From positions 310,001 to 374,000 of the forward strand of contig NZ_VNHW01000002.1 of the NCBI RefSeq assembly GCF_008124835.1: a stretch of DNA of 64,000 nt. Direction: 5' to 3'. The notes under the pieces are model-generated. The model saw only the letters and a program-made list of their open reading frames with translations, made no database searches and was not told where the DNA came from. Origin of the DNA: Blastococcus xanthinilyticus (lineage in GTDB: Bacteria; Actinomycetota; Actinomycetes; Mycobacteriales; Geodermatophilaceae). The position numbers and the translations under genes were made by a program. Positions 15,393 to 48,839 of this stretch are shown here, piece by piece (positions within the stretch are counted from its first letter, which is position 1; the number at the start of each line of letters is the position of its first letter).

Positions 15393-16892
15393 TCAGGGCT
15401 CCAGCCGCTTGCCGAGGGCGAGCACGTCGGACGGTGCCGCGGGGGCGGGCCGGTAGCCACACCCGGCGAACAGCCGCCGGGAGGCGGCGTTGCCCGCCCG
15501 GACGCGGGCGGTCAGATGGACGGCGGCCGGTAACCGGGCGGCGAGGAACTCCTCGCCGCAGCCCAGGACGGTCCGCCCCACGCCGGCCCCGCGGGCCTCC
15601 GGCGCGACGGTGATCGACGCCTCCCACCGGTCGTCGGCCAGGCGGTCGAACCGGACCGTCCCCATCGCGCTGCCGCCCCGGCGGACGACCAGCAGCAACC
15701 GGTCCGGGTCGCCGAGCACGCCGGCCAGCCAGCGGGCGTGGGCGTCGGCCGCCACCGGACGGCGGTCCAGCGACTGCGCCCGCGTCTCGGCGTCGTTGCG
15801 CCAGGCGAGGAGGAGGTCGCTGTCCGCCGGCCCGGCCGCGACCACCGACCACCCCTGCTCGGCGGGCTGCACCGCACCGCTCGCGACCCGCTCCCAGGCC
15901 CGGACCAGGCGCTCGGCCCCCCGCCCGTCGATCTGGCCGGCGGCGGCCGCGGCGAGGCCCTCGCGGCGGTCCCGGTCGCGCAGGACCTCGGCCAGCTCAC
16001 CGACGAGCCGGTCGTGGTCCCGTCGCAGGTCGGCCGCCTGCCCCAGGCCCAGCGCCGCGCCCGCGCCGACCAGCCGCCGGTAGGTCTCCTCCTGGTTGCC
16101 CACCGCCTGCACCACCGCCATCGGCACCCCGATCACGGCCAGCTCGCTGGTGGTCGTGCCGCCGGCGGTCACGACGAGGCAGGAGTCCGCGGCCAGCTCG
16201 ACGAGGTCCGGTCCCGGAGGGCGCCGCCGCACGCCGGGCGGGCCGGCGGGGGAGGGGCCGGTGCCCGCAGCCGGGTCGAGCACGAGGACCTCGGCCGGCA
16301 GCCCCGCCGCTGCCACGGCGCCGGCCACGATCTCGGTCAGCGCGGCCACGATGCCGGCGGCGTCGGTGCCCCCGGCGGTCACCAGGACCCGGTCCTGGGC
16401 CGCGCCGTCGGCCCGGCGGCGGCCGGCCGCGGCGGACACCGCCGCGCGCACCAGCGCCTGCCCCGGTCCGGTCAGCCGCACCCGGGCCGGCTGCACCACG
16501 GCCGCGCTCACGTCGCCGGTCGAGGACGCGTCGAGGACCACGTGGGCCGGGCGGCGCCCGTGCCGGCCGTCCTGGACGGCGCTGACGACCGGGGCACCCG
16601 AGCCCGGATCGCCGGGGGCGGGGGCGGTCGTCGCGTAGTGGTCCACGTGCACGACCCGGGCGCCGGTCCGTCCGGCCAGCCGGTCCAGCGGTGCCTCCGC
16701 CCCGCCGAGCACCTCCAGCCCGCTGCGGGCGACCAGCTCCTCGGCCAGCGGGGCGCGGAAGTCACCGACGAGCGCGGGCCGCCAGCCCGCCGCCACGGCG
16801 GCCTCGGCGACCGCCAGGCAGCGCACCAGGTGACCGACGCCGCCCGCGGGGACCGCGTCGCAGCGGAGCAGTGCCAGCGGCCGGTCGGTCAC
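15393..16892 (-). CDS. pseG: Fused PseG-PseH: UDP-sugar hydrolase plus N-acetyltransferase for pseudaminic acid
   Basis: A 499-residue two-domain protein. Residues 1 to about 330 are PseG-like, a GT-B-fold UDP-2,4-diacetamido-2,4,6-trideoxy-altropyranose hydrolase: the N-terminal LLRCDAVPAGGVGHLVRCLAVAEA carries the catalytic-type His, and SELAVIGVPMAVVQAVGNQEETYRRL is the nucleotide-binding end. Residues about 350-499 are a GNAT acetyltransferase (ITVAPEARGAGVGRTVL, NAASRRLFAGCGYRPA), as expected for PseH, which acetylates the 4-amino group. The fusion joins two pathway steps. The GTG start overlaps the cytidylyltransferase stop (GTGA). Assignment rests on having pseB, pseC and pseI as neighbours. 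Confidence 0.82.
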   Translation of the reverse strand: MTDRPLALLRCDAVPAGGVGHLVRCLAVAEAAVAAGWRPALVGDFRAPLAEELVARSGLEVLGGAEAPLDRLAGRTGARVVHVDHYATTAPAPGDPGSGAPVVSAVQDGRHGRRPAHVVLDASSTGDVSAAVVQPARVRLTGPGQALVRAAVSAAAGRRRADGAAQDRVLVTAGGTDAAGIVAALTEIVAGAVAAAGLPAEVLVLDPAAGTGPSPAGPPGVRRRPPGPDLVELAADSCLVVTAGGTTTSELAVIGVPMAVVQAVGNQEETYRRLVGAGAALGLGQAADLRRDHDRLVGELAEVLRDRDRREGLAAAAAGQIDGRGAERLVRAWERVASGAVQPAEQGWSVVAAGPADSDLLLAWRNDAETRAQSLDRRPVAADAHARWLAGVLGDPDRLLLVVRRGGSAMGTVRFDRLADDRWEASITVAPEARGAGVGRTVLGCGEEFLAARLPAAVHLTARVRAGNAASRRLFAGCGYRPAPAAPSDVLALGKRLEP

Positions 16893-17620
16893 CCCTCCTC
16901 CAGCGACTTCTGCACGACGGAGGCGTTGAGGGCGGCCAGCTCCGGCCGTGAGCGGAGGAGGGCGACGAGCTCCCGCCACCCGGGCGCCCGGTCGCCGGTC
17001 TCGGCGACCAGCGCGTCCAGCAGGGCGGCGTCCTCCGCGGTGTCCAGGGTGATCCGCAGATCGGCCGCGGCCGGCGCCACCACGAGCCCGGCCAGCGCGA
17101 AGGCCTCCGGCCGGCTCCAGACGTGCGAGGTGACGTGCGCGCGGTCGTGCCCGGTCGCCTCCTGGCCGGCCCGGCGCAGCGCGCCGGCCGTGATCAGCTC
17201 GACGTCCAGCCCGCGCGGCAGCGTGCGGTGCAGCGTGGTGGCCAGGTAGTCGACGCCGTCCGGGGCGGCCCGCCAGGCGGAGACGACCATCGCGACGAGC
17301 GCGGGGTCCAGCAGCGGGCAGTCGGCCGTCAGCCGGACCACCGCGTCGGCCGGGTGCTCGTCGAGCGCCCCGAGGTAGCGGGACAGCACGTCGTCGGCGT
17401 CCCCCCGGACGACCCGGGCGCCCGCGGCCCGAGCCGCCTCGGCGACGACGTCGTCCTCCGGCAGGACGGTGGTCGCGACCACCACGTCGTCCACCCCGGC
17501 GCTCGCCCGCGCCGCCCGTACGACCCAGGACAGGACCGGCCGCCCGGCGAGCGGGCGCAGCACCTTGCCGGGCAGCCGGGTGGAGCCCATCCGGGCCTGG
17601 ACGACGGCAACCACGCGCAT
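16889..17620 (-). CDS. pseF: Acylneuraminate/pseudaminate cytidylyltransferase (SpsF/PseF type)
   Basis: A 243-residue nucleotidyltransferase starting MRVVAVVQARMGSTRLPGK, the signature of the SpsF (COG1861) branch of CMP-sugar synthetases. RLTADCPLLDPALV and LDTAEDAALLDAL further support it. It would activate pseudaminic acid as the CMP sugar. An alternative ATG at 17629 adds three residues (MGG). It is divergent from pseB with only 82 bp between starts and is followed directly by the pseG-pseH fusion. Whether the donor is CMP-Pse or a related nonulosonate is not proven by sequence alone. Confidence 0.82.
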   Translation of the reverse strand: MRVVAVVQARMGSTRLPGKVLRPLAGRPVLSWVVRAARASAGVDDVVVATTVLPEDDVVAEAARAAGARVVRGDADDVLSRYLGALDEHPADAVVRLTADCPLLDPALVAMVVSAWRAAPDGVDYLATTLHRTLPRGLDVELITAGALRRAGQEATGHDRAHVTSHVWSRPEAFALAGLVVAPAAADLRITLDTAEDAALLDALVAETGDRAPGWRELVALLRSRPELAALNASVVQKSLEEG

Positions 17621-17702: not shown

Positions 17703-18698
17703 GTGACCCACCTGACCGGCCCCACCTCGCTGGACGGCGCGTCCGTCTTCGTCACGGGGGGCACCGGGTCCTTCGGGAAGGCGTTCGTGCACCGGGCGCT
17801 CGAGCTCGGTGCGACCCGGATCGTCATCTTCAGCCGGGACGAGCTGAAGCAGTCCGACATGCGGGCGCAGTTCGCCGACGACGAGCGGCTGCGCTGGTTC
17901 ATCGGCGACATCCGGGACCGCGAGCGGCTCCGCCGGGCGATGCACGGGGTCGACTACGTGGTGCACGCCGCGGCGCTCAAGCAGGTCGACACCGCCGAGT
18001 ACAACCCCGTCGAGTACATCCGGACGAACGTCAACGGCTCGGAGAACGTGGTCGAGGCGGCGATCGACACCGGGGTGCGCAAGGTGGTGGCGCTCTCCAC
18101 CGACAAGGCCTCCAGCCCGATCAACCTGTACGGCGCGACCAAGCTCTGCGCCGACCGGCTGTTCATCTCGGCCAACCACTACGCCGCCCACCAGGACACC
18201 CGGTTCAGCGTCGTGCGGTACGGCAACGTCATGGGCAGCCGGGGCAGCGTCATCCCGCTGTTCCGCCGGCTGGCGGAGGAGGGCAAGCCGCTGCCGATCA
18301 CCGACCGGCGCATGACGCGGTTCTGGATCACCCTGCCCCAGGCGGTCGACTTCGTCGTCTCCTCCCTGGACACGATGGCCGGCGGCGAGCTCTACGTGCC
18401 CCGCATCCCGAGCACCAAGCTGGTCGACCTGGTGGAGGCGATCGCCCCCGGCGCGGAGACCTACGAGGTGGGCATCCGGCCGGGGGAGAAGCTTCACGAG
18501 GAGATGATCGCGGCGGACGACTCGCGGCGGACCGTGCTGACCGGCGACCGGTACGTGATCACCCCGTACCTGGCCGGCTGGGGGTACACGCCGCCGGTCG
18601 GGGAGCAGATGCCCGACGGCTTCGCCTACCGCTCGGACACCAACGACCTGCTGCTCGACGTGCCCGGGCTCCGGTCGCTGCTCGCCGAGCTGGACTGA
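17703..18698 (+). CDS. pseB: UDP-N-acetylglucosamine 4,6-dehydratase (inverting)
   Basis: First enzyme of the pseudaminic-acid pathway: an NADP-dependent short-chain dehydratase/epimerase of 331 residues. It has VFVTGGTGSFGKAF (Rossmann), FSRDELKQSDM, ALKQVDTAEYNP, the catalytic YGATK and ERMTRFW-type DRRMTRFWI; these match PseB/FlaA1 rather than the large membrane dehydratases. The GTG at 17703 has GAGGAG 6 nt upstream. Followed 4 bp later by pseC. Confidence 0.92.
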   Translation: MTHLTGPTSLDGASVFVTGGTGSFGKAFVHRALELGATRIVIFSRDELKQSDMRAQFADDERLRWFIGDIRDRERLRRAMHGVDYVVHAAALKQVDTAEYNPVEYIRTNVNGSENVVEAAIDTGVRKVVALSTDKASSPINLYGATKLCADRLFISANHYAAHQDTRFSVVRYGNVMGSRGSVIPLFRRLAEEGKPLPITDRRMTRFWITLPQAVDFVVSSLDTMAGGELYVPRIPSTKLVDLVEAIAPGAETYEVGIRPGEKLHEEMIAADDSRRTVLTGDRYVITPYLAGWGYTPPVGEQMPDGFAYRSDTNDLLLDVPGLRSLLAELD

Positions 18699-18702
18699 CC
18701 AG

Positions 18703-19830
18703 GTGCTGCCCTACGCCCGCCAGTCGGTCGACGAGTCCGACGTCGCCGCGGTCGCCGCGGCGGTCAGCGGCGACTACCTGTCGACGGGGCCGGCGGTCGC
18801 CCGCTTCGAGGCCGACCTGGCCGGCTGGACCGGCGGGCACCCGGCGGTGGCGGTCACCTCCGGGACCGCCGCCCTGCACACGGCGTACGCTGCCGCCGGC
18901 GTCGGCCCGGGCCAGGAGGTCCTCACCTCCCCGCTGACCTTCGTCGCCACCGCGGCCACGGCCGCGCTGCTGGGCGCCCGGGTGGTGTTCGCCGACGTCG
19001 ACGAGCGGACCGGGTGCCTGGACCCCGCGGCGGCCGCCGCGGCGGTGACCGACCGGACCACCGTGGTCACCTCCGTCGACTACGCCGGCCTGCCCGCGGA
19101 CATGGACGCCCTGCGCGCCGTCGCCGACCGGGCGGGGGCGCTGCTGCTGGAGGACGCTGCTCACTCGATCGGCACCGTGTGGCGGGGCCGCCCGGTCGGG
19201 TCGCTCGCCGACCTCACCACGCTGAGCTTCTTCGCGACCAAGAACCTCACCACCGCCGAGGGTGGCGCGGTGGTGAGCACCTCGCCGGAGCTGTTCGCCC
19301 GGGCCGCGAGCTTCCGCAACCACGGCCTGGTCCGCGACCGCGGCGAGCAGCGCTGGCCCGACGAGGGACCGTGGCACCAGGAGGTGCACGCCTTCGGCCT
19401 GAACTACCGGCTGCCCGACGTCCTGTGCGCCCTGGGCTCCAGCCAGCTCGCCCGCCTGGCCGGCTTCGTCGCGCGGCGGGCCGAGATCAGCGCCCGCTAC
19501 GACGCCGCGCTCGCCGACGTGGCGGAGGTCCGCACGCCCGCGCGGCCGGACGACGCGCAGGTCGCCTGGCACCTGTACCCGGCCCGCGTCCCGGCGGAGG
19601 TCCGGCGGGCGCTGTTCGAGCACCTGCGGGCGGCGGGCATCGGGGTGCAGGTCAACTACATCCCGGCGCACTGGCACCCGGCCTTCGCCGACCTGGGGTA
19701 CCGCCGCGGCGAGTGCCCCGTCGCCGAGCAGTGGTACCGCGAGGAGATCTCGCTGCCGCTGTTCGTGGGGCTGACCGACGACGACGTCGACCGGGTCTGC
19801 GAGCTGGTCCGCGGGTTCTTCGCCGCCTGA
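18703..19830 (+). CDS. pseC: UDP-4-amino-4,6-dideoxy-N-acetyl-beta-L-altrosamine transaminase
   Basis: A 375-residue PLP aminotransferase of the DegT/DnrJ/EryC1 family. The cofactor lysine lies in FFATKNLTTAEGGAVV; LPYARQSVDESDVAAVAAAV at the N-terminus, HSIGTVWRGRPVG and NYRLPDVLCALGSSQL are typical of PseC. It aminates the 4-keto sugar made by PseB. It starts 4 bp after pseB and is convergent with pseI; both stop codons lie in a short inverted repeat. Confidence 0.9.
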   Translation: MLPYARQSVDESDVAAVAAAVSGDYLSTGPAVARFEADLAGWTGGHPAVAVTSGTAALHTAYAAAGVGPGQEVLTSPLTFVATAATAALLGARVVFADVDERTGCLDPAAAAAAVTDRTTVVTSVDYAGLPADMDALRAVADRAGALLLEDAAHSIGTVWRGRPVGSLADLTTLSFFATKNLTTAEGGAVVSTSPELFARAASFRNHGLVRDRGEQRWPDEGPWHQEVHAFGLNYRLPDVLCALGSSQLARLAGFVARRAEISARYDAALADVAEVRTPARPDDAQVAWHLYPARVPAEVRRALFEHLRAAGIGVQVNYIPAHWHPAFADLGYRRGECPVAEQWYREEISLPLFVGLTDDDVDRVCELVRGFFAA

Positions 19831-19848
19831 GCCGCGGGTGCTCAGGCG
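19824..19848. terminator. Short convergent hairpin spanning the pseC and pseI stop codons
   Basis: A 9-bp perfect inverted repeat (arms 19824-19832 and 19840-19848, 7-nt loop) contains the stop codon of pseC in one arm and that of pseI in the other. It could act as a weak bidirectional terminator; no T-tract. Confidence 0.4.
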
Positions 19849-20897
19849 CCGGCGGCGCCCAGCGCGTCCCAGCCGAGCGGCGTGCCGGCGGCCACCGGAC
19901 GGGCGAACGTCCGGCCCACCACGTCGTCCCACCGGGCCGGCGGCAGCCCGCCACCGGGCCGCAGCGCCCGCACCGTCTCCGGGCCGACGACGTCGCCCGC
20001 GGCCACGTCGGCCACCACCCAGAGGGAACGGCGCAGCCGCGCCGTCTCCTCCTCACCGGGCCGGACGCCGAACCGCGGGCCGGTCGCGACCGCGGCGCGC
20101 GCGGCCGTGCACTCGCGCACCAGGTCGGCCAGCTCCGCGGGCTCCAGGGAGAAGGCGGAGTCCACGCCACCGCCGTCGCGCCCGAGCGTCACGTGCTTCT
20201 CCACGGCCACCGCGCCGAGCGCGACGGCCGCGACCGGGACGCCGATGCCCGGGGTGTGGTCGGACAGCCCCACCGGCACGCCGAACGCCTCCCGGAGGAC
20301 GGCGATGTTGGCCAGGTGGCTCTGCGCGGGGTCGGCGGGGTAGGCCGCGGTACAGCTGAGCAGCACCAGCTCGGTCGCCCCGGCGCCGCGGGCGGCCGAG
20401 AGCGCGGCCTCCACCTCGGCCAGCGTCGCCATCCCGGTCGAGAGCACCACCGGCTTGCCGGTCGAGGCGACGAGCCGGATCAGCGGCAGGTCGACCAGCT
20501 CCGCGGACGCGATCTTGTAGATCGAGCAGTCCAGGCCCTCGAGCAGCTCGACGGCTCCGGCGTCGAACGGGCTGGAGAAGGGCACGAGCCCGCGGTCCCG
20601 GGCGTGCGCGAACAGCTGCGCGTGCCACTCGTAGGGCGTGCCCGCCTCCCGGTACAGGTCGAACAGCCGGCGCCCGCCCCAGAGCCCGTGGTCGTCGCTG
20701 ATCCGGAACGGCGGCCGGTCGGAGTCGACCGTCATGGACTCGGCCCGGTAGGTCTGGAACTTCACCGTCTGGGCGCCGGTGGCGGCGATGGCGTCGATCG
20801 TGTCGAGGGCCCGCTGGAGGCTGCCGTCGTGGTTGGCCGACAGCTCGGCGATGATCCAGGGGGCGCCGCCGTCCAGCAGCCGGCCGACGTCGCTCAC
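19842..20897 (-). CDS. pseI: Pseudaminic acid synthase
   Basis: A 351-residue NeuB-family synthase that condenses phosphoenolpyruvate with the 6-deoxy-altrose derivative to give pseudaminic acid. It has ELSANHDGSLQRALDTIDAI, KFQTYRAESM, PYEWHAQLF (the EWH motif favours PseI over NeuB/LegI), KIASAELVDLPLI, STGMATLAEVEAAL, GLSDHTPGIGVP and VEKHVTL, followed by a C-terminal SAF (antifreeze-like) domain beginning RRSLWVVADVAAGDVV. Its GTG overlaps the stop of the upstream coiled-coil gene, so the two are cotranscribed. Confidence 0.9.
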   Translation of the reverse strand: MSDVGRLLDGGAPWIIAELSANHDGSLQRALDTIDAIAATGAQTVKFQTYRAESMTVDSDRPPFRISDDHGLWGGRRLFDLYREAGTPYEWHAQLFAHARDRGLVPFSSPFDAGAVELLEGLDCSIYKIASAELVDLPLIRLVASTGKPVVLSTGMATLAEVEAALSAARGAGATELVLLSCTAAYPADPAQSHLANIAVLREAFGVPVGLSDHTPGIGVPVAAVALGAVAVEKHVTLGRDGGGVDSAFSLEPAELADLVRECTAARAAVATGPRFGVRPGEEETARLRRSLWVVADVAAGDVVGPETVRALRPGGGLPPARWDDVVGRTFARPVAAGTPLGWDALGAAGA

Positions 20898-21334
20898 GGG
20901 GCGGCGACGGGGGCGGGGCGCTGCTCGAGCCGGCGCAGCCGCTCCTCGTAGGCCGAGACGAGGGACAGGCGGGCCCGCACGCGGGCGTGCTCCTCGCGGA
21001 CGACGTCGACGAGCAGCCGGGCCTCGGGCAGGTCCTCGAGCCCGCCGGTGAGGACCACCGGCCGGGCCCGCTGCTCGAGCCGGGCCTCGAAGGCGGCGGC
21101 CTGCGGCGCCAGGCGGGCCAGCTCGTTGGCCGACCAGGAGGACTCCCGCTGCACCTCGTCGAGGCGCCGGGACAGATCGTCGAGCTGCGCGCCGCGGTGC
21201 CGCAGCTGGTCGGCGACCTCGTCGATCTGGTGCCGGAGGCCGGCCACGTCGCCGCGGAGCTCCGCGAGGAGCTCGTCGACGCGCCAGGCGATGGAGCGGT
21301 TGATCCGCAGGGTCAGTTTCGTGCGGAAGCTCAC
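20894..21334 (-). CDS. Small coiled-coil protein upstream of pseI (unknown function)
   Basis: A 146-residue protein that I do not recognise. It begins VSFRTKLTLRINRSIAWRVDELL and is dominated by heptad-like segments (LRGDVAGLRHQIDEVADQLR, LDDLSRRLDEVQRE, YEERLRRLEQR), so it should form a long coiled coil. No signal peptide or membrane segment is evident. The GTG at 21334 has GGAGGAG 6 nt upstream, a strong ribosome binding site, and its stop overlaps the pseI start (GTGA), indicating a shared operon. It may scaffold glycan assembly or be coupled to the transferase upstream; this is inference. Confidence 0.72.
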   Translation of the reverse strand: MSFRTKLTLRINRSIAWRVDELLAELRGDVAGLRHQIDEVADQLRHRGAQLDDLSRRLDEVQRESSWSANELARLAPQAAAFEARLEQRARPVVLTGGLEDLPEARLLVDVVREEHARVRARLSLVSAYEERLRRLEQRPAPVAAP

Positions 21335-21395: not shown

Positions 21396-22058
21396 TCAGG
21401 ACCAGAGCCGGGTGCGGCCGGCGGCGATCCAGCGGCGGAACAGCTCGCCCTCCAGCGCGATGCGGTGCTCCGGACCCACGATGCAGTCGTCACCGGAGGC
21501 GTGGTCCCACCGGGTCTGCTCCGGGTCGTCGACGAACGAGTAGCCGGCGAGTTCCAGGCGGGCGTCCGGGAACGTGTTGCGGGCCCACCAGGCGGCCATC
21601 GTCCCGGTCGTCGACCACAGGCCCTCGCTGCGGGAGTCCAGCCCCAGGTCGGCCGACAGCGGCAGGGTCAGGTCGTCGTTGTCCACGTGCAGCTGGCCGA
21701 GGTCGGCCGGCCACCAGGAGGGGACCAGGTCCGGCTCCCAGTGCAGCCGGCCGGGCTCCACCATGAGGTGGAGGCGGTCCTGGTAGCCGGCGAAGAACCA
21801 CGGCGTGGCCCGCAGGGCCCGGTTGAAGAAGACGACGTCCGCGCGCTGCCCGTAGGTGCACTCGCCGGGCCGGTCGTCGAGCCGGAAGCCGTTGACCCGC
21901 ACCACGAGGTCGCAGCCGTCGATCACCGCCGCGCGGGCCGGGTCCGGCTGGAGCGGCTTGTTGCCGACGACGGCGACGGAACGGACCGCGGGGTCCCGGG
22001 CGTAGGAGACGGTGAGGGACCGGATGAGATCCCGCCGTTGCTCCGCGATCTGCGACAC
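21396..22058 (-). CDS. Putative glycosyltransferase with sialyltransferase (GT29)-like motifs
   Basis: A 220-residue protein. It starts with VRSVAVVGNKPLQPDPARAA and CDLVVRVNGF, resembling sialylmotif L (nucleotide-sugar binding, a Gly-Asn in the first loop and an R-x-N strand). It continues with LWSTTGTMAAWWA in the position of sialylmotif S and ends with EHRIALEGE, an H-x4-E like motif VS of eukaryotic sialyltransferases. A CMP-nonulosonate donor is plausible because the complete CMP-pseudaminate pathway is adjacent. TACCGT lies 6 nt before the GTG (leaderless-type promoter). It lacks a signal peptide and is shorter than animal enzymes. Family membership is inferred from motifs only. Confidence 0.65.
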   Translation of the reverse strand: MSQIAEQRRDLIRSLTVSYARDPAVRSVAVVGNKPLQPDPARAAVIDGCDLVVRVNGFRLDDRPGECTYGQRADVVFFNRALRATPWFFAGYQDRLHLMVEPGRLHWEPDLVPSWWPADLGQLHVDNDDLTLPLSADLGLDSRSEGLWSTTGTMAAWWARNTFPDARLELAGYSFVDDPEQTRWDHASGDDCIVGPEHRIALEGELFRRWIAAGRTRLWS

Positions 22059-23918: not shown

Positions 23919-24431
23919 GTGAGCGAGCGCAGTCCGATCGTCGGCATCGTCATGGGCAGTGACTCCGACTGGCCGATGATGCAGCCGGCCGCCGAGGCGC
24001 TCGACGAGTTCGGCGTCGGCTACGAGGCGCACGTCGTCTCCGCCCACCGCACCCCGCGCCGGATGCTCGACTACGCCGAGTCCGCGGCGGGGCGCGGGCT
24101 GCGGGTGATCGTCGCCGGGGCCGGGGGAGCGGCGCACCTGCCGGGCATGGTCGCCGCGGCCACGCCGCTCCCGGTCATCGGCGTCCCGCGGCCGCTCGAC
24201 CGGCTCGACGGGCTGGACAGCCTGCTGTCGATCGTGCAGATGCCGGCCGGGGTGCCGGTGGCGACGGTCGGCATCGGCGGGGGGCGCAACGCCGGGCTGC
24301 TCGCCGTCCGCGTCCTCGCGGCCGGCGACGCCGCGCTGCGCGAGCGGGTGGAGCGCTTCCAGGCCGAGCTCGCCGAGAGCGTCGTGGCCCGTGACCTCAC
24401 CCTCCAGGAGCGCCTCGCTACCGACCGGTAA
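23919..24431 (+). CDS. purE: N5-carboxyaminoimidazole ribonucleotide mutase
   Basis: A 170-residue class I PurE. It has [20 protein letters not shown] with the substrate-binding Ser-Asp, [13 protein letters not shown] with the catalytic His, [14 protein letters not shown] and PLPVIGVP. It converts N5-CAIR to CAIR. GAGGAG at the end of purK serves as its ribosome binding site. Confidence 0.95.
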
Positions 24432-24453
24432 TCGGACGTCCTACGATCGCAGC

Positions 24454-28083: not shown

Positions 28084-28208
28084 GCTGGCACGGTAACCGC
28101 CGCGCGCGCCCCGTCCGGGGACGCGGCCTGGTTCGCGGAGCCGTGACCCGCCGGGGGAGCCGGTGTTCACTGTTGCGGACAGAACTGTCAGAACGGCGAG
28201 GAGTTCCA

Positions 28209-31200
28209 GTGTCGCAAGCGGTCACCGTCCGTCCCCCGACGGGCGGGTCCACCTCGGCCGCGCCGCAGGCCGGTGCGGGCCGCCGGTGGTCCCTGATCGC
28301 GCTGGTGGCGGGCCTGCTGGCCGTGGTCTGCGCGGTGCTGCTGCCGGTCGCGCCGGTGTCGATGAGCCAGCCGGTGGTCAGCTGGCCGCAGGACCCGGCC
28401 GCGCCCACCTCCACGATGCTGCAGCTGACCGCCCAGACCCCCCTCCGGATCGACGCCTCGTTCAGCTGCGCTGCGGCGCGTGTGGCGGGTGGGACCGACG
28501 ACGGTGTGATCCTCGCCACCGTCGTCCCCGGGCAGCCGAGCAGTGGCGGTCAGGGCCTGCTCGCCCGTGCCGGGGAGGACGGGCTGACGATCCGGGCGAA
28601 CGACCGGACCCTCGTCGACGGCGCGCCCGTCGCCGGCGACTGCGTGTACCGCGTCACCGGGGACGCGGCGGGGCTGACCGTGACCCGGGACGGCGACGTG
28701 GTGGGCAGCGCCCCCGACGCGCTGCTGCCGGCCGTCGACGTGCTGGCCACCTCGCTCACCGACCTCTCGCCGGCCGACGGCGAGCTGCTGGCGGTCGAGC
28801 TCGCCGTCGACGACCAGTTCGCCACGACGCCCTCGCTGCTCAAGTGGCTGCTCATGGGCCTGCTGGTGGTCGGCGCGGCGGTGTCCTTCGCCTTCCTGGT
28901 GGCCGAGCACCGCACCCGGCGCCGTGGCGCGGCCCCGGCCGCCCGCCGCGGGCGCCGGTTCGGCCCGGTCGACGTCGTCGTGCCGCTGGTGATGCTCGTC
29001 TGGATGTTCCTGGCGCCGATGTCCGACGACGACGGCTACTACGCGGCGATGGCCCGCAGCGCGGCCGACGAGGGCATGGTCGGCAACTACTACCAGCTGC
29101 TCAACCAGAACTTCACGCCCTTCACCTGGTTCTACCGCGCCCTGGGCGTGTGGGAGGGCCTGGTCGGCAGCAGCCCGGCGATGCTGCGGGTGCCCTCGCT
29201 GGTGACCGGGCTGCTGACCTGGCTGGCGCTGCGCCGCTTCACCAGCCAGCCCGGTGCGCTGCCCGCCGTGCTGGAGCGCTCGGCGCGGGGGCGGACCTCG
29301 CTGGCCGTGGTGCTCGGGGTGGCCTTCCTGGCCTGGTGGATGCCCTTCGGCGTGGGGGTCCGCCCGGAGGCCCTCGTCGGCTTCGCGGCCGCCGCGGTCC
29401 TGCTCCTGATGTCCTCGGCGATCCGCCGGGGCAGCCTGCCGCGCCTCGGCCTGGCCGTGGTGGTCGCCGCGCTGGGTGTCGTCTCCCACCCGACCGGCTT
29501 CGTGTCCCTCGCGCCGTTGCTCGCGGGCGCGCCGGCCGCGGTCCGGCTGATCCGGGACGGCGTGCCTGCGGCCCGCGCCGGGATCCGCGGCCTGGCGGTG
29601 GTGGCGCCCGGGGCGGTCGCCGCGATCGCCGCGTTCGGCGACGGCTCGCTCAACGACTTCCTGCGCGGCCAGCAGATCTTCCTGTCGATCCAGGCGCAGA
29701 ACAGCTGGTTCGACGAGTACCAGCGCTACGCCTTCCTCTTCGCCCAGGACCCGATGGGCAACTACGCCAAGCGCGCGGCGGTCCTGCTGGGTCTGGCCTC
29801 GCTGGTCTGGTTCGCCGTCCTGGCCGCGGTCTCCCGTTCCCGCCGCGGCGTGAGCCCGCAGCTGCTGATGGCCGCCTCCAGCCTCGCGCTGGCGTTCCTG
29901 CTGCTGTGGATCACCCCGAGCAAGTGGACGCACCACTTCGGCGCGCTCTCCGGCCTGGGCCCGGCGTTCCTGGCGCTGTTCCTGGTCTCCCTGCCGGTGC
30001 TCGCCCGCGCGGTGCCGGGCGGTCTGCGCACCGGCTGGCCCCTGGCCGTGCCGGCCCTCGGGACGGTCGCCGTCGTCGCGGCGCTGAGCTTCCACGGCCC
30101 CAACAGCTGGGCCTACTCCTGGCTGCAGGGCGTGCCGCAGTCGTGGCAGCGCCCGCACCTGTCGGTGCTGCCGTTCGACAGCCTGGTGGTCTGGCTCCTG
30201 GGGGCCGCCGTGGTCGTCGGCCTCGTGCGGCTGGTCGGCCGCCGGGCCGGTCTGCCGCGGCGCCGGCCCTGGCTGACCGCGGTGCCGATCGTGGCCGCGA
30301 TCTTCCTCGGGCTCTCGGTCACCTTCCTGTTCGGCAGCTTCGCCTACGCGGCCGCGACCACGCAGGACACCTACTCGCCCTGGGGGGACGCGATCAGCGA
30401 CCCGCTGGGCAGCACCTGCGGGCCGACCAAGGCCGTCGAGGTCCTGGACGTCGAGGCCGCCACCCCGTTGCCGGCCGTGCCGGGCACCGGCGACCGGACC
30501 GGCGAGGTGTTCGCCCCCGGGAGCGGCTTCTACCCCGCGAGCCCCCCGCCGGTGGAGCCCGGCACGGGGCCGGCCACCGACGTCTGGGGCAGCCTGGACG
30601 GCGACGTCGACGGATCGGCCGTCGGGGAGTTCACCACTCCCTGGTACGAGCTGCCGAGTGACGTCGGCGCGGACGAGCGGGTCGCCGTGCTGGTGGCCGG
30701 CAAGCTCGACGAGGCGGGCAACGAGCTGACCGTGGAGTACGGCCGGCAGCAGGCCGGCGGGTTCGAGGTCCTCGCGAGCGCGGGCCTCCGGGACGACACG
30801 CAGTCGGCCGTCTGGCGGGCCCGGTCCCTCGACCTCGGCGTCGCACCCGACGCCGACGCCGTCCGCCTGGTCGCCCGGGACGGTACGACGGGCAGCCCGG
30901 GCTGGCTGGCCACCACCGGGCCGTCGGTCGTGCCGGTGGAGCGGCTGGACCGGTACCTGCCCGAGGACGCCGCCGTGGCGACCGCCTGGCAGTTCTCGTT
31001 CCTGTTCCCCTGCCAGCGGCAGCTGGACATCACCAACGGCATCACCGAGCCGATGGAGTACGCGGTCATGTGGGGCGGTCAGGGGGTCGACGGCCTCGGC
31101 GACGCCACCTGGCAGCTGGGCCGCGGTGGCCTGTTCGCCCCGACGCTGCGCAACTCGTCGGTGACGCAGGTCGGCGGCTGGTGGCCCGACTGGCCCGGGA

Positions 31201-31331
31201 TCACGACCCTGCAGGTCTTCCGCGTGGTGGCGCCCTACCCGGACGCCGCCTACGAGGTGCGGGAGACCACGGAGACCCGGTGGGGCTGGCAGGGCCCCGA
31301 CGAGGCGCGCTGGCCCTACGGCGAGGGCTGA
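28209..31331 (+). CDS. Emb-type arabinosyltransferase (GT53)
   Basis: A 1,040-residue membrane glycosyltransferase of the EmbA/EmbB/EmbC family, which transfers arabinofuranose from decaprenyl-phosphoryl-arabinose. Order of domains: one N-terminal helix (LIALVAGLLAVVCAVLLP), an extracytoplasmic jelly-roll domain, the catalytic loop MSDDDGYYAAMARSAADEGM near residue 270 (the DDx motif), a 12-13-helix core, and a large C-terminal carbohydrate-binding domain with TTLQVFRVVAPYPDA. The GTG at 28209 has AGGAG about 6 nt upstream. Only one emb gene is present here, whereas mycobacteria have three, so it may carry out all arabinan extension or work with an AftB/C type enzyme elsewhere. Confidence 0.87.
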   Translation: MSQAVTVRPPTGGSTSAAPQAGAGRRWSLIALVAGLLAVVCAVLLPVAPVSMSQPVVSWPQDPAAPTSTMLQLTAQTPLRIDASFSCAAARVAGGTDDGVILATVVPGQPSSGGQGLLARAGEDGLTIRANDRTLVDGAPVAGDCVYRVTGDAAGLTVTRDGDVVGSAPDALLPAVDVLATSLTDLSPADGELLAVELAVDDQFATTPSLLKWLLMGLLVVGAAVSFAFLVAEHRTRRRGAAPAARRGRRFGPVDVVVPLVMLVWMFLAPMSDDDGYYAAMARSAADEGMVGNYYQLLNQNFTPFTWFYRALGVWEGLVGSSPAMLRVPSLVTGLLTWLALRRFTSQPGALPAVLERSARGRTSLAVVLGVAFLAWWMPFGVGVRPEALVGFAAAAVLLLMSSAIRRGSLPRLGLAVVVAALGVVSHPTGFVSLAPLLAGAPAAVRLIRDGVPAARAGIRGLAVVAPGAVAAIAAFGDGSLNDFLRGQQIFLSIQAQNSWFDEYQRYAFLFAQDPMGNYAKRAAVLLGLASLVWFAVLAAVSRSRRGVSPQLLMAASSLALAFLLLWITPSKWTHHFGALSGLGPAFLALFLVSLPVLARAVPGGLRTGWPLAVPALGTVAVVAALSFHGPNSWAYSWLQGVPQSWQRPHLSVLPFDSLVVWLLGAAVVVGLVRLVGRRAGLPRRRPWLTAVPIVAAIFLGLSVTFLFGSFAYAAATTQDTYSPWGDAISDPLGSTCGPTKAVEVLDVEAATPLPAVPGTGDRTGEVFAPGSGFYPASPPPVEPGTGPATDVWGSLDGDVDGSAVGEFTTPWYELPSDVGADERVAVLVAGKLDEAGNELTVEYGRQQAGGFEVLASAGLRDDTQSAVWRARSLDLGVAPDADAVRLVARDGTTGSPGWLATTGPSVVPVERLDRYLPEDAAVATAWQFSFLFPCQRQLDITNGITEPMEYAVMWGGQGVDGLGDATWQLGRGGLFAPTLRNSSVTQVGGWWPDWPGITTLQVFRVVAPYPDAAYEVRETTETRWGWQGPDEARWPYGEG

Positions 31332-32258: not shown

Positions 32259-32798
32259 ATGACCGAGGGCCCGCTGACGCGTCTCACCCGACTCGACGAG
32301 CAGCTGCTGCGCGCGACCCGGCGACGGCTGGGGCACACCCCGGCGGTGCCGGTGGCCAAGGGGCTCTCCCTGTTCGGCGAGCACGCCGCGGGCTGGCTCG
32401 CGCTGGGGGCGGTGGGCTACCTGCGCGGCTCCCGGCGGGCGGAGTGGGCGCAGGCCAGCGTCGGCGTGTTCGCCGGGCACGCCGCCGGTGTCGTGGTCAA
32501 GCGGGTCGTCCGCCGGCAACGCCCGGCGTTCACCGACCTGCCCGCCCTGGCGCGGACGGCCGGGAAGCTCTCCTTCCCGAGCGCGCACAGCTGCTCCACC
32601 GCGGCCGCCGCAGTGGGGTTCGGCCCGCTGATCGGCCGCCCGGTCATGGGGACCGCGCTGGGGGCCATGCTGGTCTCGCGCGTCCTGCTGGGCGTGCACT
32701 ATCCGAGTGACGTCGCCGCGGGGGCCGCCATCGGCGGGCTGTCGGCGGTGACCGTGCGGACGCTGGCGCGCCGCGCGAGGGAGAGGGGACAGCAGTGA
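32259..32798 (+). CDS. PAP2-family phosphatase (decaprenylphosphoryl-5-phosphoribose phosphatase-like)
   Basis: A 179-residue membrane phosphatase with all three PAP2 motifs: KRVVRRQRPAF, SFPSAHSCSTAAA and SRVLLGVHYPSDVAAG. Coupled by GTGA to the decaprenyl-phosphate phosphoribosyltransferase gene, it very probably removes the 5-phosphate from decaprenyl-phosphoryl-5-phosphoribose, the second step in making the arabinose donor, as proposed for its mycobacterial counterpart. A TAGAGT box at 32244-32249 is 9 nt before the ATG. Confidence 0.85.
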   Translation: MTEGPLTRLTRLDEQLLRATRRRLGHTPAVPVAKGLSLFGEHAAGWLALGAVGYLRGSRRAEWAQASVGVFAGHAAGVVVKRVVRRQRPAFTDLPALARTAGKLSFPSAHSCSTAAAAVGFGPLIGRPVMGTALGAMLVSRVLLGVHYPSDVAAGAAIGGLSAVTVRTLARRARERGQQ

Positions 32799-33787
32799 GC
32801 AGCTCGACCGGGCAGGGCACCGGCGCCAAGCCGGCGAGCCCGGCCGTGACCGGGCCCGCGACCCAGCCGTCCCTACCGGTGGTCGAGCTCGCCCCGCGGC
32901 TCCCGGGGTTCCGCGGCAGCCTCTCCTGGGGCATCGTGCGGGCGCTGCGCCCGCGGCAGTGGGTGAAGAACTTCCTGGTGCTGGCCGCCCCGCTGGCCGC
33001 CGGGGCCATCTTCGACCCGGACGTGCTGGGCCCCACCGCCATCGCCTTCGTGCTGTTCTGCCTGGCGTCCTCGGGCGTCTACGTGGTCAACGACCTCCGT
33101 GACATGGAGGAGGACCGCCGGCATCCCCGCAAGCGCTTCCGCGCCATCCCCGCCGGCGTCGTGCCCATCCCGCTGGCCGTGGTCATGGGCGTGGTCCTGC
33201 TCGTCGGGTCGGTGACGGCGGCTGTCCTGCTGACCCGCCCGGCCCTGGCCGGGGTCATCGGCAGCTACGTGGTCATCTCGCTGTGCTACTCGTTCTTCCT
33301 CAAGAACCAGCCGGTCATCGACCTCGCCGTCGTGGCCTCGGGCTTCCTGCTCCGCGGCATCGCCGGCGGCGTCGCGGCCGGGCTGCCGCTGTCCCAGTGG
33401 TTCCTGCTGGTCGCGGCGTTCGGCTCGCTGTTCATGGTCGCCGGCAAGCGGTACTCGGAGCTCATCGTGATGGGGGACGCCGCGGCCACCCGCCGCACCC
33501 TCCAGGAGTACTCGGCGAGCTACCTGCGGTTCGTGTGGAGCCTGTCGGCCGGCGTCGCCTGCACCGCGTACAGCCTGTGGGCCTTCGAGCTCGGCCAGGA
33601 GCAGGACGGCGTGCCCTGGGCGGCGATCTCCATCGGGCCGTTCGTGCTCGGGATCCTGCGCTACGCCGTCGACGTCGACAAGGGCGCCGCCGGCGCTCCC
33701 GAGGAGATCGTCCTCGGCGACCGCGTGCTGCTGCTGCTGGCGGCCCTGTGGGCGGTCACGGTGGGCGTCGGGGTCTTCACCCGCTGA
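32795..33787 (+). CDS. Decaprenyl-phosphate phosphoribosyltransferase (UbiA family)
   Basis: A 330-residue UbiA-superfamily membrane protein. The first aspartate motif is NDLRDMEEDRRHPRKRFRAIP and the second lies around YSELIVMGD. RPRQWVKNFLVLAAPLAAG at the first helix is typical of the phosphoribosyltransferase subgroup, not of quinone enzymes. It makes decaprenyl-phosphoryl-5-phosphoribose, precursor of the arabinose donor used by Emb enzymes. The GTG overlaps the PAP2 stop. The epimerases DprE1/DprE2 needed downstream are not in this window. Confidence 0.9.
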   Translation: MSSSTGQGTGAKPASPAVTGPATQPSLPVVELAPRLPGFRGSLSWGIVRALRPRQWVKNFLVLAAPLAAGAIFDPDVLGPTAIAFVLFCLASSGVYVVNDLRDMEEDRRHPRKRFRAIPAGVVPIPLAVVMGVVLLVGSVTAAVLLTRPALAGVIGSYVVISLCYSFFLKNQPVIDLAVVASGFLLRGIAGGVAAGLPLSQWFLLVAAFGSLFMVAGKRYSELIVMGDAAATRRTLQEYSASYLRFVWSLSAGVACTAYSLWAFELGQEQDGVPWAAISIGPFVLGILRYAVDVDKGAAGAPEEIVLGDRVLLLLAALWAVTVGVGVFTR

Positions 33788-39461: not shown

Positions 39462-41896
39462 AGCGGGTCGTCGGCCGGCTGCCCGTCGCGCTCGCGCTGG
39501 CCCTGCTCACCCTGGCGACGGTGCTCGTCGCGCCCCTGGGGCCGGCGCCGCGGGTGGACCTGCAGCCCGCGGCGGACGCCCGCCAGTTCAACGCGGGCAA
39601 CATCATCTCCGACGAGGTGTTCTTCGCCGGCGGATCGATGTCGGCACCCGAGGTGCAGGCGTTCCTGGACGTGAAGAACCCGGCCTGCTACCCCGCCCCG
39701 GACGGGACCCCGTGCCTGCGGAATTACCGGCAGAGCACCCCGACGATGGGGGCGACCGCCTTCTGCGGCCACTACCCCGGAGGCGGCTGGGAGAGCGCGG
39801 CGGACATCATCGCCAAGGTCGGCTGGGCCTGCGGGGTCAACCCGCGGGTCCTGCTGGTGCTGCTGCAGAAGGAGCAGTCGCTCGTCACCGCCAAGGGGGC
39901 GACGCTCACGCCCACCCGCTACCAGAAGGCGACCGGCTTCGGCTGCCCGGACACCGCCCCCTGCGACCCGGCCTTCGGGGGGTTCTTCTACCAGGTCTAC
40001 AACGCTGCCCGGCAGTTCCAGAACTACCGGATCAACGCTTCCCGCTTCGGCTACCGGGCCGGCATCACGCAGCAGATCCGCTGGTCGCCGGACGCCGCCT
40101 GCGGGTCCGGCTCGGTCTACGTCGCCAACCAGGCGACCGCGGGTCTGTACAACTACACGCCCTACCAGCCCAACGCCGCCGCGCTGGCGGCGGGCTACCG
40201 CACCGGTGACGGCTGCTCCGCGTACGGCAACCGCAACTTCTGGCTCTACTACACCGACTGGTTCGGCAGCACCCAGTCGCCCGGCGGCGGTGTCGTCGCC
40301 GCCAAGTACGCCAGCTGGGGCGGCGCCGCCGGCGTCCTCGGCGAGCCGCGGTCGCTGATCCACTGCGGCCTGCGCGGCGGTGGCTGCTTCCAGGAGTACA
40401 CCTACGGCGCGGTCCACTGGTCGCCCGGCACCGGGGCCTTCGTGACCCGCGGGTGGATCGCCAGCCGCTGGTCCACGAACAGCCGGGAGATCGGTTTCCT
40501 GGGCTATCCGCTCTCCGACGAGCGGCCCGCTGCCGGTGGCGGCGCCTACCAGGTGTTCCAGGGCGGCACCGTCTACGCCTCCGGCGCCGCCCCTACCGCC
40601 CTCGTGGTGCGTGGGTGGGTGCTGGATCGGTGGTCGGTGCTGGGTCGGGAGGGTGGCCTGCTGGGTTTCCCGTCGTCGGAGGAGGTCGCGGTGGCGGGGG
40701 GTGTGCGGCAGTCGTTCCAGGGTGGGGTGGTGTCGTCCTCGGCGTCGACGGGGGCGCACGAGGTGCATGGTTCGGTGTTGGCGAAGTGGGATGAGCTGGG
40801 TGGGGAGAAGGGGCGGCTGGGTTTCCCGACCTCGGATGAGGTTGCGTCGCTGTGGGGGGCGTACAGCACCTTCAGTGGTGGGGTGATCCATGCCGCGGCG
40901 GCGACTGGCCCGCAGCCGGTGTGGGGGTGGGTCGGTGCGCGGTGGGTGGCGTCGGGGGCAGGGAAGGCCGCGGTCGGTTATCCGGTGCGACCCGAGGCGC
41001 CTGCTGGTGACGGCGTCGGCGCGATCGGGGAGTTCTCCAACGGTCTGATCGTGTCCAGTGCCGCCACGGGTGCATGGGACCTGGTGGGACCGGTGGCGGA
41101 GAAGTGGACTGCGATGGGCGGGGTCAAGTCGTTCCTGGGGTATCCGACGGCGGCGCCGAAGGCGGTGGCCGGGGGTGGGTCGGTGAGCGTCTTCCAGGGC
41201 GGGTCGATCTATTTCTCACCGGCGACCGGTGCCTTCGAGGTGCACGGCTGGATCCGGGACAAGTGGCTGGCCAAGGGTGGGCCTGTCGGTCTGGGTTACC
41301 CGACGTCGGACGAGCAGCCGGCACCGGGTGGGGGAGGGGTGTTCCAGACCTATGAGAACGGGCTCATCTACTCCTCGGCCAAGAAGGGCGCCTTCGAGGT
41401 GCACGGGCTGATCGAGGACAAGTGGGCGGCCATGGGTGGGCTGTCGTGGGCGTTCGGGGTGCCGGTCAGCGACGAGATCGTGCTGCCCGACGGAGTCGGG
41501 CGCGCCAGTGAGTTCTCCAGCGGGGCGGCGATCTACTTCTCGCCGGCGACCGGGCCGTGGCAGGTGCGGGGCTGGGTGCGCAACACCTGGTCGCAGATGG
41601 GCGCCGAGCGCGGGTTCCTGGGGTATCCGACCAGTGATGAGATCCCGCTGCCCGGTGGGGCGGGGGTGGAGGCCCGGTTCCAGGGTGGGCGGATCTGGTC
41701 CTCGGTGGCCACCGGCGCCCGGGAGGTGCACGGGGCGATCCTGGAGCGCTACCTGGCCCTGGGTGGGCCGGCCTCGCCGCTGGGGCTGCCGACCAGCAAC
41801 GAGGAGGCCGTGCCCGGTGGGCGGCGCAGCACGTTCCAGAACGGGACGATCACCTGCAACACCACCACCGGCGCCATCACGGTGCAGCTGCGGTGA
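39458..41896 (+). CDS. Secreted LGFP-repeat protein with N-terminal hemagglutinin/lysozyme-like domain
   Basis: An 812-residue exported protein. The signal peptide VKRVVGRLPVALALALLTLA is followed by a domain of about 240 residues beginning QFNAGNIISDEVFFAGGSMS, with LLVLLQKEQSLVT and GFFYQVYNAARQFQNY. That domain is widespread in actinobacteria, often called hemagglutinin, and the conserved KEQS and the helix pattern suggest a lysozyme-like fold (inference). Ten LGFP modules follow; the last eight are the block shared with the amidase. It starts in a GTGA overlap with the lipoprotein gene. Likely a wall-bound hydrolase or adhesin. Confidence 0.83.
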   Translation: MKRVVGRLPVALALALLTLATVLVAPLGPAPRVDLQPAADARQFNAGNIISDEVFFAGGSMSAPEVQAFLDVKNPACYPAPDGTPCLRNYRQSTPTMGATAFCGHYPGGGWESAADIIAKVGWACGVNPRVLLVLLQKEQSLVTAKGATLTPTRYQKATGFGCPDTAPCDPAFGGFFYQVYNAARQFQNYRINASRFGYRAGITQQIRWSPDAACGSGSVYVANQATAGLYNYTPYQPNAAALAAGYRTGDGCSAYGNRNFWLYYTDWFGSTQSPGGGVVAAKYASWGGAAGVLGEPRSLIHCGLRGGGCFQEYTYGAVHWSPGTGAFVTRGWIASRWSTNSREIGFLGYPLSDERPAAGGGAYQVFQGGTVYASGAAPTALVVRGWVLDRWSVLGREGGLLGFPSSEEVAVAGGVRQSFQGGVVSSSASTGAHEVHGSVLAKWDELGGEKGRLGFPTSDEVASLWGAYSTFSGGVIHAAAATGPQPVWGWVGARWVASGAGKAAVGYPVRPEAPAGDGVGAIGEFSNGLIVSSAATGAWDLVGPVAEKWTAMGGVKSFLGYPTAAPKAVAGGGSVSVFQGGSIYFSPATGAFEVHGWIRDKWLAKGGPVGLGYPTSDEQPAPGGGGVFQTYENGLIYSSAKKGAFEVHGLIEDKWAAMGGLSWAFGVPVSDEIVLPDGVGRASEFSSGAAIYFSPATGPWQVRGWVRNTWSQMGAERGFLGYPTSDEIPLPGGAGVEARFQGGRIWSSVATGAREVHGAILERYLALGGPASPLGLPTSNEEAVPGGRRSTFQNGTITCNTTTGAITVQLR
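40605..41880 (+). repeat. Large direct repeat, copy 2 (eight LGFP modules)
   Basis: Second copy of the 1,276-bp block at 37584-38859. After 41880 the two genes diverge again, ending in different last residues (TVTVR versus TVQLR). Confidence 0.92.
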
Positions 41897-41964
41897 GCGT
41901 TCCGGCCCGCACCGACCCGGGGCAGCCGACGGGTGGTCCCCCGATCGTGGGTAGCGTCCCTGCC

Positions 41965-42801
41965 ATGACAGCTCCGCCCACGACTTCGCGGCACGACTGG
42001 CGGAGCGCTCTGGCCGACCTATCCGGGGGGTGGGGGCAGCGCTCGCTGTGGGGTCACCTCGGCTGGCAGGACATCCGCCAGCGGTACCGCCGGTCGGTGC
42101 TCGGCCCCATCTGGATCACCATCAGCATGGCCGTCACCGCGGTGGCGCTGGGCATCCTCTACGCGGGGCTCTTCGGCAACGACCTGTCGGTCCAGCTGCC
42201 CTACATCCTCGTCGGCTTCATCGTCTGGGCCTTCATCAGCGGCTGCATCACCGAGGGCGCGGACGTCTTCATCGCCAACGAGGGGCTGATCAAGCACCTG
42301 CCCGCGCCGCTGAGCGTGCACGTCTACCGGCTGGTGTGGCGGCAGAGCCTCTTCTTCGCGCACAACCTGATCGTCTACCTGATCATGCTCCTGGTCTTCC
42401 CGCAGCCGCTGGACTGGAGCGTGCTCCTCGCGCTGCCGGCCTTCCTGCTCCTGGCCGTCAACGGCGCCTGGGTCGCGATGCTGTTCGGCATCGTCACCAC
42501 CCGGTTCCGCGACCTGAACCCGATCACCCAGAGCATCGTCCAGCTGATGTTCTTCCTCACGCCGATCGTGTGGATGTACCAGGACCTGCTGAACAGCAGC
42601 AACCCGACGATCGCCGACCGGGCGCGCCTCGCCGAGTTCAACCCCTTCCTGCACTTCATCGAGGTGATCCGGCAGCCGCTGCTGGGGCAGGATGTGGTCT
42701 GGCGGCACTGGGTGGTGGTCCTCGGCATCACGGTCGTCGGCTGGGTGATGTGCCTGGTCGTCCTGCGGCGCTACCGGTCCCGAGTCTCGTATTGGGTGTG
42801 A
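41965..42801 (+). CDS. wzm: ABC transporter permease for polysaccharide export (Wzm type)
   Basis: A 278-residue ABC-2 permease. After an amphipathic N-terminus comes LGWQDIRQRYRRSVLGPIW, typical of Wzm/TagG/RfbD permeases, followed by six hydrophobic segments and FNPFLHFIEVIRQPLL before the last helices. With the ATPase downstream it would export lipid-linked galactan or a related polymer. The ATG at 41965 is chosen because TAGCGT lies 7 nt upstream; a GTG at 41893 overlapping the previous stop would add 24 residues. Confidence 0.9.
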   Translation: MTAPPTTSRHDWRSALADLSGGWGQRSLWGHLGWQDIRQRYRRSVLGPIWITISMAVTAVALGILYAGLFGNDLSVQLPYILVGFIVWAFISGCITEGADVFIANEGLIKHLPAPLSVHVYRLVWRQSLFFAHNLIVYLIMLLVFPQPLDWSVLLALPAFLLLAVNGAWVAMLFGIVTTRFRDLNPITQSIVQLMFFLTPIVWMYQDLLNSSNPTIADRARLAEFNPFLHFIEVIRQPLLGQDVVWRHWVVVLGITVVGWVMCLVVLRRYRSRVSYWV

Positions 42802-43568
42802 ACGTGTCCGAAACGGCTTCCCGGGTCAGCATCTCGACCCAGAACGCCTCCGTCGACTTCCCCATCTTCGATGCGCGGAGCCGCTCCCTGAAGAAGACCA
42901 TCATGGGGATGGTCGGGGGCAACATCTCGACGACCGAGGGCAAGGTCCCGGTCATCGAGGCCCTGCGCGACATCACCATGCACCTCGAGCACGGGGCGCG
43001 GGTCGGCCTGGTCGGGCACAACGGCGCCGGGAAGTCCACGCTGCTGCGGCTGCTGTCGGGCATCTACGAGCCGACCCGCGGCGAGGCGTCGATCAACGGC
43101 CGGGTGGCCCCGGTCTTCGACCTCGGCGTCGGCATGGACCCGGAGATCTCGGGCTTCGAGAACATCATCATCCGCGGTCTCTTCCTGGGCATGACCCGGA
43201 AGCAGATGGAGGAGCGGATCGACGACATCGCCGCCTTCACCGAGCTCGGTGACTTCCTGAGCATGCCGCTGCGCACCTACTCCACCGGCATGCGCGTGCG
43301 CCTGGCGCTCGGGGTGGTCACGAGCATCGACCCGGAGATCCTGCTGCTGGACGAGGGGATCGGTGCGGTCGACGCCGCCTTCCTCGAGAAGTCCAAGCGC
43401 CGGCTGTCCGACCTGGTCGACCGGGCCGGGCTGCTGGTGTTCGCCTCGCACTCCGACGAGTTCCTCCGCGAGCTGTGCGACACCGCCATCTGGATGGAGC
43501 ACGGGCAGATCAAGTTGCAGGGGGACCTCGAGGACGTGCTCCGCGCCTACAAGGGGCAGCCGGCGTGA
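42798..43568 (+). CDS. wzt: ABC transporter ATPase for polysaccharide export (Wzt type)
   Basis: A 256-residue nucleotide-binding protein. It has Walker A GHNGAGKSTLLRLLSGIYEP, the Wzt/TagH-type region VFDLGVGMDPEISGFENI, signature YSTGMRVRLALG, and Walker B ILLLDEGIGAVD with FASHS as H-loop. It lacks the C-terminal carbohydrate-binding domain of O-antigen Wzt proteins, like the mycobacterial galactan exporter ATPase. The GTG overlaps the permease stop and its stop overlaps glfT1. Confidence 0.9.
   Translation: MNVSETASRVSISTQNASVDFPIFDARSRSLKKTIMGMVGGNISTTEGKVPVIEALRDITMHLEHGARVGLVGHNGAGKSTLLRLLSGIYEPTRGEASINGRVAPVFDLGVGMDPEISGFENIIIRGLFLGMTRKQMEERIDDIAAFTELGDFLSMPLRTYSTGMRVRLALGVVTSIDPEILLLDEGIGAVDAAFLEKSKRRLSDLVDRAGLLVFASHSDEFLRELCDTAIWMEHGQIKLQGDLEDVLRAYKGQPA

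Positions 43569-46538: not shown

Positions 46539-48839
<2,301 letters not shown>

Follow-up and report, generated by a model that had tools for sequence, protein, structure and literature searches.

The window, a 64,000-nucleotide stretch of a Blastococcus xanthinilyticus contig, harbors on its minus strand a short gene of the GT29 type, together with a gene for a coiled-coil protein and a set of predicted pseudaminic acid (pse) genes:

15393..16892, minus strand: PseG-PseH-like fusion (sugar-nucleotide hydrolase and GNAT acetyltransferase); start inferred
16889..17620, minus strand: PseF-like cytidylyltransferase (PF02348; TIGR03584 at 38.6 against 205.7 bits); start inferred
17703..18698, plus strand: PseB, UDP-GlcNAc 4,6-dehydratase (TIGR03589, 468 bits against 408); start codon inferred
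18703..19830, plus strand: PseC-like aminotransferase (TIGR03588, 406 bits, narrowly under the cut-off of 423.5)
19842..20897, minus strand: PseI, pseudaminic acid synthase (TIGR03586, 408 bits against a cut-off of 340)
20894..21334, minus strand: coiled-coil protein of 146 aa, with predicted helices at residues 3-90 and 99-138
21396..22058, minus strand: GT29-type nonulosonate transferase gene (220 aa, GTG start)

The initial annotation had described the pseudaminic acid pathway beside the GT29-type gene as complete. PseB and PseI exceed their cut-offs and bear this out for their own steps; PseC falls just below its threshold, and the PseF-, PseG- and PseH-like functions score far below theirs, with 49.2 against 153.6 bits for the PseG-like part of the fusion and 24.3 against 93.1 bits for the PseH-like part (NCBIfam equivalog cut-offs). 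Since three of the six steps rest on domain type and position, the sequence makes a complete six-step pathway in the window likely, rather than proven.

The start of the GT29-type gene lies on a column common to several 220-aa homologues in the alignment, and the closest named relative of its product is that of Blastococcus sp. MG754426 (90% over 210 columns). Searched on its own, the window protein matched nothing in Pfam or among PDB sequences at E 10, nor in NCBIfam at E 1, and family profiles were therefore needed. PF00777 was matched by 25 of 39 alignment members at E ≤10 (best 1.7e-5) and by 21 of 34 at E ≤1 (best 1.8e-6); taken singly, one of four homologues (P0095) exceeded the curated PF00777 cut-off (24.8 against 23 bits), one reached 16.7 bits and two gave no match. 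Against PDB sequences, all six entries found with profile A1 are GT29, as are six of the eleven found with the wider profile A2, the remaining five being weak and unrelated, and no unrelated family was identified with confidence. The predicted model of the window protein presents a GT-A-like sialyltransferase core and best matches GT29, which occupies ranks 1-27 in Foldseek and ranks 1-14 in VIA, the VIA list speaking only for the families that it contains; identity to the model in the GT29 rows of the structural alignments is 12-19%. Together, profiles and predicted fold support the window gene product as a small member of GT29, the fold family of the animal sialyltransferases, in agreement with what had been proposed from the sequence at the outset. 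The biochemistry of GT29 is known from animals, and the nearest solved animal enzymes are ST6GalNAc2 (6apj/6apl), ST3Gal1 (2wml/2wnb), ST6Gal1 (4js1/6qvt) and ST8SiaIII (5bo6/5bo9).

A scan of genome contigs gave 134 matching stretches, of which 84 are relatives, and 80 loci were kept, all from the Actinomycetota; these loci are mutually related, and counts taken over them are not independent. Sialylmotifs L (residues ~26-80), S (~148-175), III (H186) and VS (H198-x4-E203) were found in this order in the 220-aa protein, where VAVVGNKP, RVNGF, WSTTGTMAAWW and HRIALE follow one another just as the initial annotation had read them; H186, the motif III candidate, was absent from its list. Fifteen positions (G32, N33, R42, D47, R54, D61, G70, T150, T151, G152, G172, H186, G189, H198 and E203) are invariant in all 81 aligned rows, which comprise the window protein and the 80 loci, and because of this invariance and of the GT29 outcome of the structure searches we regard the motif match as more than chance. 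A profile alignment matched motif L to GT29 chains of known structure. Motifs S and III were assigned visually and from their order, and motif VS falls in register in the A2 profile alignment, its own score being negligible. The profile alignment sets N56 and N79 against the asparagines of RFN and RLMN in motif L of ST6Gal1, position 56 being Asn in 57 and Thr in 24 of the 81 rows. In the animal enzymes these asparagines presumably contact the donor, and the motif VS histidine, H198 here, presumably acts as the base. The cysteine of the ST6Gal1 motif L (RCAVV) corresponds to Val28 in the profile alignment, and the window protein lacks the cysteines of the animal-type disulfide between motifs L and S. 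The same lack is reported for other bacterial GT29 members (PMC5811610), so the missing cysteines speak against the animal subgroup and not against GT29.

In the mechanism that we infer, a CMP-activated nonulosonic acid would be bound through motifs L and S, and transfer would be inverting, with H198 of the H-x4-E motif as the base and H186 assisting. The enzyme is probably cytoplasmic; compared with animal GT29, its N-terminal helix is charge-rich and no membrane anchor is apparent, as judged without a predictor. A degenerate or non-catalytic GT29 protein, which might for instance bind the donor as an adaptor of the coiled-coil protein, would be compatible with the length of 220 residues, ~45-100 fewer than in most of the solved animal chains retrieved (265-318), and with the low confidence at which residues 105-109 are modelled. 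Across all 81 rows, however, the histidines of motifs III and VS, the glutamate and the majority of motif L positions do not change, and we hold this reading to be very improbable. We hold it to be as improbable that the enzyme belongs with the bacterial GT42 sialyltransferases (Cst-I and Cst-II) instead of GT29. In the structural comparison, GT42 scored below every GT29 row, and the sequence searches that were run gave no GT42 match.

On the minus strand, a gap of 61 bases separates the coiled-coil gene from the GT29 gene ahead of it, and at its other end it shares 4 bases with the start of pseI. At E 1e-6 and with no coverage filter, 78 of the 80 loci have the coiled-coil gene immediately behind GT29, in the same orientation and starting within 231 bases; a search at E 1e-10 with 40% coverage gave 66 loci. 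The two loci of the 80 in which it was not found, L047 and L050, are both from Schumannella. Coiled-coil gene and GT29 enzyme occur in the same six of 60 relatives, own genome included. The window copy matched no Pfam family, and 18 members of the group gave few, scattered and weak Pfam matches, each family being matched by at most two members and many of these being coiled-coil families. On the C-terminal side, a stretch reading EHAR-x-RARL...YEERL is conserved. We infer a partnership between the enzyme and this neighboring protein, in which the two would work together.

In a further difference from animal GT29, the donor genes beside the window enzyme are those for pseudaminate. Within the genus, the enzyme is present in 5 of 22 congener genomes, and a full-length NeuB-family synthase (E <1e-60) is found in exactly these five, ~1.5 kb away at most (Fisher P = 3.8e-5, without correction for relatedness). 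Neighborhood and co-occurrence make CMP-pseudaminic acid from the adjacent pse genes the most likely donor of the window enzyme, the donor that its position next to pseI had first suggested. This assignment does not extend to the family. Among the 80 loci, a NeuB-family gene lies near the enzyme in 71, with more than 50% identity to the window PseI in 42 and less in 29. Neighbor counts were obtained by direct searches (a greedy ORF clustering, which merged antisense ORFs with Wzm, was discarded), and dropping the coverage filter gives 72 NeuB-family and 67 GlfT1 loci instead of 71 and 66. Ten of the 29 distant synthases were typed; all ten score higher for NeuB_NnaB than for PseI and none reaches the NnaB cut-off, while the one in L023 is also over the PseI cut-off (342 against 340 bits). 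As 29 of the 80 loci carry a more distant synthase, and the typed ten are nearer NeuB_NnaB, the enzyme by itself does not reveal its donor.

A second Blastococcus locus, L007, presents an apparent swap of the donor pathway relative to the window, with NeuC and NeuB-type genes adjoining the same transferase (L007:7621-10648), the NeuC match (TIGR03568) being above cut-off. On one side, this module is flanked by GtrA and by relatives of window positions 24391-25608, 23919-24431 and 22703-23908, and on the other by a relative of 10914-13874; we take these four to be acyl-CoA dehydrogenase, PurE, PurK and SbcC, respectively. The flanks are the same and the synthase genes are others; the transferase is therefore retained while the sugar pathway is exchanged. 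Because related loci pair the enzyme with a NeuB- or NeuC-type pathway, the family is not restricted to pseudaminate.

On a tree built from aligned tblastn segments, not full ORFs, the Pse label changes 5 times, against a mean of 27 after shuffling, a gap that near-copies help to produce. All 43 Pse-labelled rows have Asn at positions 56 and 79, and position 79 is His in 24 of the 29 rows labelled other than Pse; with four independent pairs on supported branches and a sign test P of 1, the pattern does not constitute independent evidence. The donor labels are themselves rough, L023 being classed as 'other' at 44% despite its pseB-, pseC-, pseF- and pseG-like genes, and L047 and L052 also carrying some pse-like genes. 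No NeuB-family gene was found in nine of the 80 loci, six of them with full flanks. In L010, L011, L072, L076, L077 and L079, the GT29 and coiled-coil genes stand beside galactan genes, with full flanks in which no NeuB-family gene was found.

Candidates for the acceptor pathway lie further along the window:

28143..31331, plus strand: Emb-type arabinosyltransferase (PF04602, PF14896, PF17689), candidate acceptor pathway
32795..33787, plus strand: decaprenyl-phosphate phosphoribosyltransferase (NF008978, above cut-off)
41893..42801, plus strand: Wzm, galactan export permease (NF050109, above cut-off)
42825..43559 (match limits), plus strand: Wzt-like galactan export ATPase (77% to the Wzt of L072, which passes NF050108)
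43580..44452 (match limits), plus strand: GlfT1-like galactofuranosyltransferase (73% to the GlfT1 of L072, which passes NF050113)
44549..46507, minus strand: GlfT2 galactofuranosyltransferase (PF17994, PF19320)
46539..47819, minus strand: UDP-galactopyranose mutase (TIGR00031, above cut-off)

The Emb-type gene is 6 kb from the GT29 gene, and those for Wzm, Wzt, GlfT1, GlfT2 and UDP-galactopyranose mutase are 20-26 kb away. Across the loci, the galactan locus (GlfT1 NF050113, Wzt NF050108, Wzm NF050109, GlfT2 PF17994) adjoins the enzyme in 66-67 of 80, with Wzm and Wzt in 67, GlfT1 in 66 and both kinds of synthase represented; the galactan families were confirmed above cut-off in L072, and Wzm and GlfT2 in the window too. 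Of the 67 loci with Wzm, 64 have it upstream of the enzyme in the opposite orientation and 42 have it within 1 kb; galactan-export genes were not found in 13 of the 80, eight of them with full flanks. Within the genus, 15 of 22 congeners have Wzm over cut-off, all five GT29-bearing ones among them, an association that is not significant in these 22 genomes (Fisher P = 0.11). Of the six enzyme-bearing genomes of the genus, four (G000, G005, G006 and G016) carry a Wzm over cut-off within 25 kb of the enzyme on one contig, and two (G007 and G015) carry it on a different contig.

Since the enzyme adjoins genes for a sialic-acid-like sugar and lies near cell-wall galactan genes, it probably puts such a sugar on the cell surface. 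The acceptor would be a cell-envelope glycan, perhaps lipid-linked galactan before its export by Wzm-Wzt; joint inheritance of the enzyme and the galactan genes need not mean joint function. Taken as a whole, we consider it probable that the gene encodes a GT29-fold CMP-nonulosonate transferase, most likely using CMP-pseudaminic acid here, that acts with a coiled-coil partner on an envelope glycan. Computation itself shows the predicted fold, the conservation of the motif residues and the genetic coupling; donor, mechanism, partnership and acceptor are interpretation. More tentatively, and with a good deal of doubt, the GT29 and coiled-coil module of Geodermatophilaceae and Pseudonocardiaceae may cap or decorate lipid-linked galactan before export, the choice between Pse and Neu/Leg being set by exchange of synthase genes.

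That the same transferase serves an acceptor other than galactan, be it a surface glycoprotein, a glycolipid or a separate polysaccharide, is a serious contender whose chances fall somewhat short of even. The window encodes a GT4 enzyme, a Polysacc_synt-like, flippase-like protein (below cut-off) and two acyltransferases, of which a separate polysaccharide could be the product, its galactan export genes are 20 kb off, and the eight full-flank loci without galactan-export genes include both of Schumannella; yet the GT4 and flippase-like genes have relatives in only two of the 80 loci, whereas galactan-export genes accompany the enzyme in 67 with either kind of synthase. Pseudaminic acid is also a known sugar of flagellin (PMC3426422, PMC7591256), and the genome of the window contains three flagellin matches, so that the enzyme might modify flagellin as other transferases do in other bacteria. 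All three matches are on contigs other than that of the window, however, and only 9 of 37 enzyme-bearing genomes have flagellin (assembly completeness not given), which makes flagellin unlikely as a general acceptor and leads us to consider this alternative decidedly unlikely. A search for Maf (PF01973) found none in the genome, a weak test in that the control matched only four archaea among 14 control genomes, and we draw no evidence from it.

Two long LGFP-repeat proteins, encoded at 36092-38875 (with an Amidase_2 domain) and 39023-41896, directly precede the galactan exporter gene of the window, and a similar LGFP protein is encoded close to GT29 in the Geodermatophilus locus L072. An ORF behind GT29 in L072 had been considered as an Emb arabinosyltransferase and was rejected, being an LGFP-repeat protein. 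The Schumannella (Microbacteriaceae) loci L047 and L050 form long branches, with neither coiled-coil nor galactan-export genes in 10 kb, and their enzymes may perhaps use a different acceptor.

The initial annotation had presented a bacterial GT29-like enzyme as rarely described. Bacterial GT29 is already in print, and several homologues of the window protein already bear the name GT29. In the accessible parts of PMC5811610, a set of 23 bacterial GT29-like sequences is reported, 19 of them alphaproteobacterial, with Alpha-, Gamma- and Epsilon-Proteobacteria represented and with trees that did not permit function prediction. Compared by description with those sequences, the window branch stands apart: it is actinobacterial, and it is associated with Pse- or Neu-type pathways, with a coiled-coil protein and with galactan export. 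The titles and opening parts of abstracts searched, in a literature sample from which most subscription papers are missing, named no nonulosonate transferase as part of a galactan locus and mentioned neither an actinobacterial GT29 nor an arabinogalactan nonulosonate; within that scope, we found no precedent for the actinobacterial branch, for its coiled-coil partner, for donor-gene exchange or for the link to galactan.

If the galactan reading is true, arabinogalactan would undergo a sialylation-like modification by the family that sialylates animal glycans, and the loci hint at a sialic-acid-like sugar on the wall galactan of some Actinobacteria. An actinobacterial branch standing beside donor genes would offer a directly testable bacterial GT29 and a possible soluble catalyst for pseudaminate transfer, as well as a natural series of related enzymes that go with different donors.

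The branch is sparsely distributed. Profile A2 matches 3 of 394 genomes of the class, own genome included, and among the best 120 of 608 matches (E ≤0.01) of an A2 protein search, in which only the 7993 candidates sharing most words were scored, all are relatives from the same branch and none bridges to proteobacterial GT29. A whole-genome search with PF00777 found no match in the window's own genome, nor in the A2-positive G297, which perhaps lies outside the sample of 388. That search matched 7 of the 388 genomes of the class and none of 14 named control genomes. In G179, G194, G236, G264, G304 and G372, the PF00777 matches are the size of motif L and lie in frames of 347-948 codons, which are possibly further branches of GT29.
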